Origin: Astropecten irregularis
Taxonomy: Eukaryota; Echinodermata; Asteroidea; Paxillosida; Astropectinidae
Direction of reading: 5' to 3'
DNA: 64,000 nt
Assembly (NCBI GenBank): GCA_963971285.1
Contig: OZ020244.1
Location: 28,396,001 to 28,460,000, forward strand
Shown piece by piece: positions 28,301 to 34,300 of this stretch. The translations under genes were made by a program, and so were the position numbers. The stretch's first letter is position 1. Every line of letters begins with the position of its first letter. Under the pieces are notes generated by a model. The model saw only the letters and a list, made by a program, of their open reading frames with translations. It was not told where the DNA came from and searched no databases.

Positions 28301-31300
28301 TACATATAACTTACAGGGTATGAAGATGGTGGTGGTAGAAACATACCGTTAACATCTTTCCACCTGAAATGGTGTACCAACGACCGAAAATCTTTTTGAT
28401 CTTTTAAAAGATCAAAAATAAAAGAGAAAAGACTTAGGAAATACTGTTGCCGTTTTTCACTGTTTTCTCAAAAAGTGGGCACCGTATGGGACTGAAATTT
28501 TCACAGATGACTATTACTGTATCTTCCTCAATATTTTGCCCATGAATCTGTATTTCTTTGACAGAAACAAAAGTATGATATTACCTTTAAGTCCTGTTTA
28601 CGTTGCTCACCATGCATGCTCCAAGAATTGTGATTGCCCACGAGTACTACTACTACAACAAGATCGACCTAGTAGCTGTAGATATTGGGTTTATGAGTTG
28701 GTTAGTAGCTGTAGATATTGGGTTTATGAGTTGGTGTGTACAAACAAAAAACCTTCATATGATTACAGTGTTGTTTTTCTCTCCACGTAGAAACAGAGAT
28801 GGACTCTGATTCAGACTCGACCCAGGACAACAACGTGAACGAGGATGAACACACGGACAAGCAGCAGCAGCAGCAGGAGGAGGAAGATGAAGAGGAGGAA
28901 GAGACGAAAGACCCTGGACTCTTTGGCATGACGCTAGTCAACTCCTACGGCAGTGCCGAACTGGGAAGGCTGAAGGACGACGGCAACATCATTAAATTCA
29001 CAAGTAATTATCCTCATTGAGATTTATCACTATATTCCCTACAGGCATGTTACTTTTCCTCGGGTCAGCTGATTTCCGATTTCAGACACTGCAGAAATTC
29101 CAACACTCTGCTGAAAAGTTGATCTTGATGCTATTACACAACTTTCCTATAATTCTGAGGCTGCCCAATTGTCCAGGCCAAGCTTTTGAATTGTAGTTAT
29201 TATTTTGTGTTGATATTGGAGGCTTTGTGTGGTATAGATTGTAATTGCAGTTTTCTTTCTTATTTGCTTTGTCTCCATTGCAGATCGGTCATACATAGCA
29301 CTAGACTGGTACACCAAAGCTAAAGAAAAGTTCTACAGTGAAAAAGAGGCTGAGGTAAGACCCTTATCAGTCACAAGGAACACGAAGGAATCATCATGAA
29401 ACAGTTTGAGTTCATATTTCAGTTTCTGAGACCTGGGGCTGATTTCATAAAACTTACGACGCGTCGTAGAGTTAAGACGCATCCTTTCTCTATGGATTCA
29501 CCGCATAGATGCGACGCGTCACAGCTAGGACGCGTCGCAAATTGAGTTGCGACGCGTCGCAGAGCTTTATGACATCGGCCCCTGGTCTGGACTTCACTGA
29601 ATGCTAAGATTAATCTTAATATGAGTTGTCAGTTTCATCCATTGTGACATACCCTTTGCTTAGTAACTACGATTTGTTCACTCTTAAGATCAGTCTTAGT
29701 GCTTTGTGAAATTGGTCCAAGCTCAAAACTTGAAGAAACCTGCTGAGAGAAGATGAAGGCCAAACAAACAAAATAGAAAGAAGGAAAAACGGTCTTTGCC
29801 CACACTGAAACAAGTCTAACGATCGCAACTCATCTCATGATGTTCCCATGACAGTTAGGGTATTTGAAATTCACGGAATCAGAAGCGTAGTATTATTATT
29901 ATTATCTCAACTATTGAGATAAATTGACTTGGAATTGAGCACATACGATGTGTGTTGCCTTGCAGGCGTACGACGTCCACGAAAGCATGAACTACCAAAG
30001 CACGTCCAGGAGGCAGCAGATCGACCTGAGTGACTGCATCAATCTTTTCATCACAGAGGAAACGCTAGAGAAAGAAGACTCATGGTGAGTGTCACAGAGG
30101 GTTGTAGTGGCTTAAAGGTAGCATCATACTTTGGTGAGAAACACCAAAACAGAAATGTTCACAGATTTACATAAAACTTACAGGGTATGAAGATGGTGGT
30201 GGTAGAAACAAACCGTTAACATTTTTTCGCCTGAAATGGTCTATTCATCCAGAAATTAGTAAAACAACGACCGGAAATCTTGTTGATCCTTTAAAAGATC
30301 AAAAATGAAAGAGAAAAAGACTTAACTCTTCCGCTACGGCGCGCCGCTCACAGCGGCTCGAAAAAAATCTATTTCTGGCCGGCAAGCCGCTGAGAGCGGC
30401 TCGATGTAAACACTGTGAATCGCGCGTCCTATTGGCCGATTGAGCATCAATGAACGTCAGTAGCCAATCGTATTTCGTATAGCAGCTATTTGGCATTCAT
30501 TCATTATCATAATTTCCCGAAAAACTCCGATGATGACGTGGCAAAAGCCGAAAGACACCGAGAGCATTGATTTCGACGCGTGCGTATGCTATAACCAACA
30601 TGGCGGATCCAGGAAGTGACACGAGTACTTCGCGACCGCGGAGAATTTCTTCCCAACATGCCATGAACCTGCTTTCTCACTGGATTTCAGACGAGGAAAG
30701 TGAGAGCGAAAGTGGTGAAGAGTCCGACTTCAGTGACGGGGAGAGCCAGTCAAGCACGGTGAGCGAGAATTCCGAGGATTCGGAGACTGATTCACAAGAT
30801 GATAGTCGGCCTAGTACGAGTACAACGAACCCAAGGCAACGTAAACAACATGGCGGCCCAAACAAACGTCCGCGTGTACAGACAGCTACGGCTCAAAGTA
30901 CATGGCAGAATGTCTCCCAATCGACAAATGATGCAGCTGGACAGTCATTCAGATTTGTGCCAAGCAATACACCCGGCGTAAATGCAGATCTGGACAGCAC
31001 TTCGTCCCCTCTTGACTGCCTGTATGAACTGCTCTCAAATGATGTATTGGAGAGTATCCGAGACATGATAAATGAATATGCTACACATAGGATAAAGATC
31101 AACAATCCGCCACGTCGTAGATCTATCTTCGGGAATTGGAAGCCTGTCAGCATCTGCGAGCTTCTGAGATTCCTTGCCGTCCTCATAGCCATGGGGCTCA
31201 ACAAGCAGCCAGTAATCAAGGACTACTGGTCGAGAACACCAGTGAACCACAATCCATGGTACGGCCAGATGTTCCCGAGAGACAGATTCGAGGCGATCTA

Positions 31301-34300
31301 CCATTCCATGCTCCATGCATCTGAGATAGATGCAAAATCCAAAGACAAGATCGAACCCTTCCTGAACACCCTTCTTGACAAATTTCAGACCGCGTTCTAT
31401 CCCTTCACCAATGTATCAATTGACGAGATGGTGATAGGCTGGAAAGGAAGATGGAAATACAAACAGTACAATCCAATGAAGCCACGGAAGCATCACATCA
31501 AAACGTACGGTCTTTGTGACAGTTCCACTGGGTACGTGCATAATATCCTCATCTATTTCGGAAAGGAGACATCGTATGACACCAATCAAGATCCAGCAAG
31601 TGGACATGCACAAAAAGTTTTTCAATATCTCTTGAAACATCTAGGTAAAGGCCACCATATTTTTGCAGACCGGTACTACACCACGTACAACCTAATCGAA
31701 CAACTGAATGCCCAAAAAATGTATTACACAGGGACACTAAACACCAACAGAAAGAACTTCCCTCCAGAACTGAAAACACTAAAACTTGACCATCGGGAGT
31801 CTCGTTCGTACCGTAGCGAGGACAGCAATATCCTGTGTGTTGCATGGAGGGATAAGAAAGCGAAAAAACCATGCGTCCTAGTGTCCACGAAAGCTACAGT
31901 TGGAACTGTCACCGTAACAAGGAAAAGAGGAGAACAAGTTGACATGCCAGCTGTAGTTCACGACTACAACTTCTCCATGAACGGCTGTGATCGGGTCGAC
32001 CAGTGCATTTCGTACTATGGACAGTTCACTCGAAAAACCGTGAAGTGGTGGAAAAGGATTTTCCTGTGGCTCTTAGAAATTTGCCAGTCAAATGCGTATG
32101 TGCTCCATACACTCACACGAGAGCCCAACACAAGAAAGATGAGCTTGCGGAAATTCAAGCACTGTCTAATCGAAGGTTTGACGGAGGAGGCTGCTCGGCT
32201 TGTAGGCGATGATCATCCAAGACCTCGAGTTGGACGACCACGCATTGGCAATCCAGTGGAACGACTGCAGGGTAACGTTCATCTAATTGATTACGTAGCA
32301 GAGGACAGGAACTGTGTTGTTTGCAGCACCCCGGCAAAACGGAAACGAACAAACTTTGTCTGCATGGGATGTACCGGCATGCCTCATCTTCATCCCAAGG
32401 ATTGTTTCTATAGATATCACACATCTCCCTGAACACTTAGGGTCTTCCTCACATTTAGAGAGTTGTTTTTATTCAATTATTTACAGTTTTTATTGGAACC
32501 TCCAATTATTTTTCATCTTGAATTCATCAAAAAACCCTACACATGATGAATTGTGTTCATTTGTGTTGTTTTTTTTTTCTGTATTTTTATAATTATTTAT
32601 TTTTATAATTTTTTTTATGAGTGACTGCCAGAGGTGACTGAACATGATGTAGAAATAATTTTGAAATGTTTTGATTGACCATAAAAACTCTGTCCATTGA
32701 AACAGTGTAGTGACACAAAGTACCGAATAAGAAATCTTGCATTTTGCTGAAACTCAAACTCTCTCCAAAAAAAAATTGTCTCACCTTCCTGCCGATTGTT
32801 GCTTTGAGATTCCTCCTCAATAACTGCCACCAACACTTGGGATTCTCCAAACATTTTGCGTCTTTTTTTTTTATTGGAACTTGCAATTGATTTCTTTATT
32901 CTGCAATCTACTTGTATATAATCACCAAAGTTATACACTTTTCTTTTGTTTGTTATATTTGTTGTTTTTAATTTGTTTATTTATTTGTTTATTTACTACA
33001 TTTGTATCTAATTGTTTATTTCTTTTTTGTAAATTGATAACCATAAGTGACTGCACTGTTGATACTGATAGACGGAATGATAGGTAGTTAGAACTTTGCC
33101 AAGTAACACAGAATTGAAAGGAAGTGCATGTACTTTGCCACGTACATGAGTGTAAAGGAAGAAATCGTGCAATTGACCCAAATCTCTAATAATTTGTATC
33201 TCTAAAAAACACTATAACTCAGCCATTTGTACTTGCATTGAAATAGAACTTGGAACATTATTGCCATAATCCTCTTCTATAGATTTATGCCATGAAAACC
33301 AAATGTGTGCATGTGGTAACTGTGCCTTACTCAGAACCAGTATATAATCACCAAAGTTATACATTTTTATTTTGTTTGTTTTATGTTGTTTTTATTTGTT
33401 TATTTATTTGTTTATTTACTACATATGTATCTAATTGTTTATTTCTTTTTTGTAAATTGATAACCATAAGTGACTGCACTGTTGATAGACGGAATGATAG
33501 GTAGTTAGAACTTTGCCAAGTAACACAGAATTGAAAGGAAGTGCATGTACTTTGCCACGTACATGAGTGTAAAGGAAGAAATCGTGCAATTGACCCAAAT
33601 CTCTAATAATTTGTATCTCTAAAAAACACTATAACTCAGCCATTTCTACTTGCATTGGAATGAAACTTGGACACATTATTGCCATAATACTCTTCTATAG
33701 ATTTATGCCATGAAAACCAAATTTTTGCATGTGGTAACTGTACCTTATTCAGAATTATGGAAATTATTTTATTCAAATTTCATAGTTATAATACAATTTT
33801 TCATGTTTGATGTGCAAGAAATTGTCCATAATAAAAAAATACACTCCAATTTATTGCATATAAATATTTGTCATGTCCTCAGCTTCATTTTGATATCTTA
33901 CTTCATCATGTAGACCCAAGCAAAGGTAGTTAAAGAAGTTTCATGTTTGCATGTTCACAAATATTTCCCACTGTGCAAAATAATTGCGTCACAGCGCATA
34001 TAAAAATACCGTAGCGGAAGAGTTAAGAAATACTGTGGCTGTTTTTCACTGTTTTCTCAAAAAGTGGGCACCGTATGGGACTGAAATTTTCACAGATGAC
34101 TGTTACTGTATCCGTCTTGATATTTTTGCTAATGAATTTTTGATAAAAACTAAAGTATGATATTACCTTTAACAGTCCAGGATCATGGGAAGCAAGCTGT
34201 TGTTGCTGTGGCAAAAGCCAGGAAGTATTTCAGGGGCCGAAACAGGGCCTTTACAAACCTGGGCTTGAGGTTAGGCTTGGAAATTATTTTGCTTCCGCCA

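Follow-up and report, generated by a model that had tools for sequence, protein, structure and literature searches.

The piggyBac transposon of Trichoplusia ni (T. ni) is, according to passages of PMC7351741, excised through hairpins, carries TTAA overhangs, is integrated almost invariably at TTAA and leaves a donor site that is repaired seamlessly, while its excision tolerates other flanks. The short terminal inverted repeats (TIRs) of piggyBac-type elements have C-rich tips with the motif CC[C/T]T, as described in parts of PMC10813416 and PMC2872659; CCCTT is the most conserved end motif in what the former reports, and intact elements are not rare in its survey of small animal genomes, where 85 of 212 types had intact copies. 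A TTAA target together with an AGGRR tip is given, in sections of PMC6004289, for the T2/Kolobok miniature inverted-repeat transposable elements (MITEs). We report that a stretch of 64 kb from Astropecten irregularis (contig OZ020244.1, positions 28,396,001 to 28,460,000; "the window" denotes this whole stretch) very probably harbours an autonomous transposon of the piggyBac superfamily, one of two full-length copies found, whose recent insertion split an older and very abundant TTAA-flanked, Kolobok/T2-like MITE at that repeat's internal TTAA, within an intron of a USP4/11/15-like gene. If the mechanism is that of T. ni piggyBac, the transposase would free each 3' end of the element, TTAA hairpins would form and be reopened to four-base TTAA overhangs, and the ends would be joined to a TTAA target, and the donor site could then reseal with no footprint.

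The searches covered a genome of 475.7 Mb, whose sequences are referred to as C1, C16 and so on, and the backward pattern served as control for pattern counts. In window positions, the element is composed as follows.

30326..34022, plus strand: piggyBac-like element, 3,697 bp excluding the TTAA duplications, with a second full-length copy on C16
30322..30325, no strand: left TTAA target-site duplication, read in the sequence
34023..34026, no strand: right TTAA target-site duplication, read in the sequence
30326..30339, plus strand: left 14-bp TIR, CTCTTCCGCTACGG, a perfect match to the right TIR
34009..34022, minus strand: right 14-bp TIR, a perfect match to the left TIR
30343..30357, no strand: subterminal palindrome GCCGCTCACAGCGGC near the left tip, a candidate repeat for transposase binding
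30385..30401, no strand: palindrome AGCCGCTGAGAGCGGCT in the left end, related to GCCGCTCACAGCGGC, candidate transposase-binding repeat
30600..32432, plus strand: transposase gene, 610 codons and a stop, with a DDD triad (275/357/464) and a C-terminal Cys/His motif at about 572-607
32914..33336, plus strand: first copy of a tandem duplication in the 3' non-coding part (about 420 bp, 94.6% identity)
33340..33754, plus strand: second copy of the tandem duplication; both copies are also in the C16 element
33830..33835, plus strand: AATAAA, candidate polyadenylation signal, motif read in the sequence

The exact TTAA plus 14-bp end occurs at three places in the genome, all of them at the ends of the two full-length copies, and the element ends are therefore not a product of chance. 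At up to two mismatches the end was found at 10 places, and since the backward control also gave 10, the places with two mismatches are no evidence on their own; stretches of 5-6 kb at C24 and C8 gave no match when compared with the element. The palindromes near the left tip may be bound by the transposase, and the same scan, which has no chance control behind it, gave further short palindromes in both element ends. The tandem duplication lies in a 3' non-coding part of approximately 1.6 kb, and the AATAAA at 33830-33835 may, judging from its motif, be a polyadenylation signal.

The transposase frame starts with ATG at 30600 and runs uninterrupted and without intron to a stop that ends at 32432. 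Residues 136-500 match the Pfam family DDE_Tnp_1_7 over its entire profile (positions 1-349 of 349; E 3.4e-73), with a score of 247 bits where the cut-off is 22.4. Two proteins of solved structure were matched, piggyBat (9c0f; E 3.8e-50), with whose C-terminus the C-terminal cysteine motif aligns, and T. ni piggyBac (6x67; E 4.7e-22). Two protein alignments were used, A2 with five full-length proteins of this genome and A1 with 10 rows. The catalytic residues D275, D357 and D464, counted from the ATG, as well as C572, C575, C588, C591, C602 and H607, are invariant in all five A2 proteins; in A1 the C12 protein L033 has a glycine at the D464 position, where the third catalytic aspartate is expected. 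An initial annotation of the window had listed TTAA duplications with exact 14-base inverted ends, an uninterrupted transposase of more than 600 codons and a C-terminal cysteine domain, all of which agree with our data. It had also listed Asp286, Asp368 and Asp475, which are the same catalytic residues numbered from a TTG at 30567, 11 codons upstream of the ATG.

The second full-length copy (C16:6294483-6298180; 3,698 bp) has an open transposase frame and perfect TIRs, and its flanks are unrelated to those of the window copy. The two copies differ by 33 substitutions over 3,687 aligned sites and by 21 gap columns, all gaps being 3' of the gene. Within the transposase, nine of the 10 codon differences are synonymous, giving a nonsynonymous divergence (dN) of 0.0007, a synonymous divergence (dS) of 0.023 and a dN/dS ratio of about 0.03. 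The probability of at most one replacement among 10 differences without selection is P = 9e-6 to 6e-5, depending on the weighting of transitions, and selection for a functional protein was probably acting while most of the divergence between the copies accumulated. Since the one-sided 95% upper limit of dN is 0.33% as compared to a dS of about 2.3%, at least some 85% of the synonymous divergence predates both insertions, provided that inserted copies decay neutrally; on the same proviso, this earlier divergence would have arisen in active source copies whose transposase was under selection. The coding changes were polarised against the family relics, which supplied one or two bases for each site: of the 10, the window copy accounts for two (both synonymous) and the C16 copy for five (four synonymous), and three could not be assigned. 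Moreover, the first 274 bp, i.e. the left end and leader, carry no substitution, although the rate seen in the 3' non-coding part would predict 4.0 (P about 0.02). Activity had been offered as inference in the initial annotation; the second intact copy and the dN/dS ratio lend support to recent activity, and we infer from these sequence comparisons that the family has been mobile in the recent past and may have retained this ability.

Several observations weigh against an autonomous, recently inserted element. Only two full-length copies were found in the genome, and the other family loci (C12, C19, C22, C23, C30 and possibly C10) are deleted, broken or partial. Specifically, the C12 locus (L018) is an internally deleted copy, those on C19, C22 and C23 are pieces (the fetched C23 stretch contains 200 N and may be incomplete for that reason), C30 is a piece with stops and C10 a possible fragment. 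The genome search for the ends that the initial annotation had proposed accordingly returned one other full-length copy among loci that are mostly relics or fragments; the left 275 bp of the element occur at no fewer than 6 places and the right 300 bp at no fewer than 3, these repeat counts being lower bounds. The TIR tip is CTCT, whose second base departs from the usual CC[C/T]T, and the AlphaFold model, built on a five-sequence alignment, is poor (mean predicted local distance difference test score 41.6, predicted template modelling score 0.31). The C16 copy (L017) is flanked by AAAA on the left and TTAA on the right, i.e. it has no TTAA pair. Furthermore, a search of the assembly for an empty allele, using the window flanks without MITE and insert, hit nothing except the locus itself, on its two sides. 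The joined flanks of the C16 copy likewise matched the two sides of their own locus, together with 40 matches (38 long and two short) to another interspersed repeat, none of which reaches the junction (40 of 1,053 candidates scored; the nearest repeat match ends about 49 bp from it).

The low copy number, the relics and fragments and the 33 substitutions that separate the two full-length copies would all fit a piggyBac that is dead or dying, in a family now inactive, with a frame that has stayed intact only through the little time elapsed. We regard this as rather unlikely, because neutral decay would hardly give nine synonymous changes to one replacement and because, if inserted copies decay neutrally, most of the synonymous divergence is older than the insertions; a later stop of activity is still compatible with these data.

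Mosaic flanks are not confined to the C16 copy. In the C12 relic, the left flank is TTAA and the right flank TTTT. Of the three copies that have both ends, two thus carry such flanks, the third being the window copy with TTAA on both sides. The odd side in both cases is TTTT when read outward from the element. Mutation of the duplication, at two adjacent bases in each, is the plainer reading. A single integration event at a non-TTAA A/T target is improbable in our view; here, the element's own TTAA overhang from hairpin opening would have been ligated across a mismatch, and segregation of the strands at replication would have left one TTAA flank and one flank with the target sequence. For comparison, both copies of a C20/C12 pair from another piggyBac-like family have TTAA on both sides. 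Should the mosaic flanks be a product of the mechanism, the way in which piggyBac deals with targets other than TTAA could be read from genomic copies.

The strong purifying selection on the protein would also be expected of a domesticated transposase gene with a host function, as described for PGBD5. However, perfect TIRs, which a domesticated PGBD gene would have lost, are retained in both full-length copies, and the sequences around the two copies are unrelated. Within its MITE, the window copy is bounded by a clean pair of TTAAs, and even outside the gene the left ends of the two copies are the same. The frame is intronless, whereas PGBD5 is described as containing introns (parts of PMC3902484). 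Together, these points make domestication highly improbable.

The sequence into which the window copy was inserted, and its relatives in the window, are as follows.

30112..30325, plus strand: left part of the host MITE, starting TTAAAGGTAGCATCATACTTTGG, from alignment with other copies
34023..34172, plus strand: right part of the host MITE, ending ATATTACCTTTAA, from alignment with other copies
26444..26806, plus strand: uninterrupted MITE copy whose insertion site reads TTAA, from alignment
28247..28590, plus strand: uninterrupted MITE copy with TTAG at the site, from alignment
51225..51569, plus strand: uninterrupted MITE copy whose insertion site reads TTAA, from alignment
45350..45513, minus strand: partial MITE copy with greater divergence (76.8% identity across 164 aligned columns), which stops short of the insertion site

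Joined across the element, the flanks make up a repeat of 360 bp, with which three other window copies can be aligned over the whole length, namely 26444-26806, the comparison proposed in the initial annotation, 28247-28590, which was not listed there, and 51225-51569. The internal TTAA is kept in two of these three uninterrupted full-length copies, the third having TTAG, and the site sequence GACTTAAGAAATACTG is found exactly at 26646 and 51404; the claim that the host repeat is broken precisely at a TTAA that is whole in the copies at 26444 and 51225 is thereby confirmed, and so is the order of insertion. The MITE was inserted first and the piggyBac element second, because the element sits in the internal TTAA that uninterrupted copies have kept. 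Homology among the full MITE copies ends at the outer TTAAs, beyond which the sequences are unrelated, and the copies are therefore separate insertions and not products of local duplication.

The MITE end pattern (at most two mismatches) has 56,763 matches in the genome, 28,257 forward and 28,506 reverse, with none for the control, which at two ends per element corresponds to a rough estimate of 28,000 MITE copies. The insertion-site pattern (at most one mismatch, which will in some cases lie inside the TTAA) has 18,996 matches as compared to 11 for the control. Scaled from the TTAA density of the window, the internal site accounts for about 0.6% and the MITE ends for about 1.9% of all genomic TTAAs. 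Because the MITE is so abundant, there is nothing remarkable in an insertion into it, and copies without an insert are to be expected in the vicinity. The copies previously described as unfilled sites do show the repeat uninterrupted; they are paralogues and not alleles, some such copies would be expected in any 64 kb, and they provide no evidence of excision.

All four full-length MITE copies have TTAA at both ends. Their tips are AGGTA at three of four left ends and at all four right ends, with ATGTA at the left tip of the 51225 copy; with respect to the Kolobok/T2 motifs, RR is present in seven of the eight tips and AGGRR in none. These AGG-type tips appear to resemble those of Kolobok/T2 MITEs more closely than those of piggyBac.

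Both elements lie within a single host intron.

30085..35064, plus strand: intron of the USP4/11/15-like gene that holds the nested elements, with splice signals in the sequence and a codon split TG|G

The element has the same orientation as the gene, and the exon ends around the intron join in frame as ...SWYCPACKK... The gene was assigned on the basis of the exon stretches 18868-19050 and 35066-35215, which match the Pfam UCH family (E 1.1e-6 and 4.4e-10, respectively), the latter with USP4 as its best match (E 5.3e-26). The upstream exon 29966-30085 matched no family when searched alone against Pfam; we presume that it is USP4/15-like. That the nesting reflects a segmental duplication or an assembly join instead of transposition into the MITE is hardly credible: the window does hold four full-length MITE copies, three of them within about 8 kb, but their homology stops at the outer TTAAs, the element is bounded exactly by TIR and TTAA, and the exons on either side of the intron join in frame.

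Beyond its own genome, the element had no matches among phage records and no pattern matches in viral contigs, and none of nine pattern matches in bacterial and archaeal contigs was confirmed. Elsewhere in the window, positions 55783-56644 hold overlapping long open frames in several reading frames over an imperfect short repeat, with a protein unit like INHTQASYVQLPS. Matches to COX1 were seen on three contigs: that on C168 has 10 in-frame TGA, which we take to reflect the animal mitochondrial code, and looks like an animal mitochondrion; C131:32162-33484 is without in-frame stops and is perhaps a bacterial contaminant; and C25:9951047-9952018, with seven TGA, is perhaps a nuclear mitochondrial copy.

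The protein search of the genome (72 of 84 candidates scored) gave 60 matches, mostly at low identity and to other piggyBac-like loci. The proteins of these other families are approximately 28-34% identical to that of the element, and their tips differ. The C20/C12 pair (L031/L033) resembles our two copies in being near-identical (99.86% over 2,789 bp) and in having unrelated flanks; both of its members are bounded by TTAA on either side, and it differs from our copies in its CCCTT tips. This family is also young. In a C15/C9 pair, identity reaches 99.73% across 3,684 bp, the match starting at the edge of the fetched stretches, and four piggyBac-like loci (L041-L044 on C1, C15, C9 and C1) have open frames of 832-833 amino acids with 97.2-99.7% identity in the four pairs compared.

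The host MITE shares with the T2/Kolobok MITEs of Xenopus a TTAA target and a tip that starts with AGG, but its AGGTA departs from AGGRR at the fourth base. The element itself is a good example of a known superfamily and was probably mobile recently; its value lies in being clean, low in copy number and accompanied by a second intact copy, which makes it useful for insertion surveys in this animal. Finally, T. ni piggyBac (6x67/6x68) likewise has a DDD transposase and a TTAA target but is more distant than piggyBat, and the tips here are CTCTT and not CCCTT. piggyBat (9c0f) is the best solved relative, aligned over residues 40-608 with both the core and the C-terminal cysteine motif, although it is distant in sequence.

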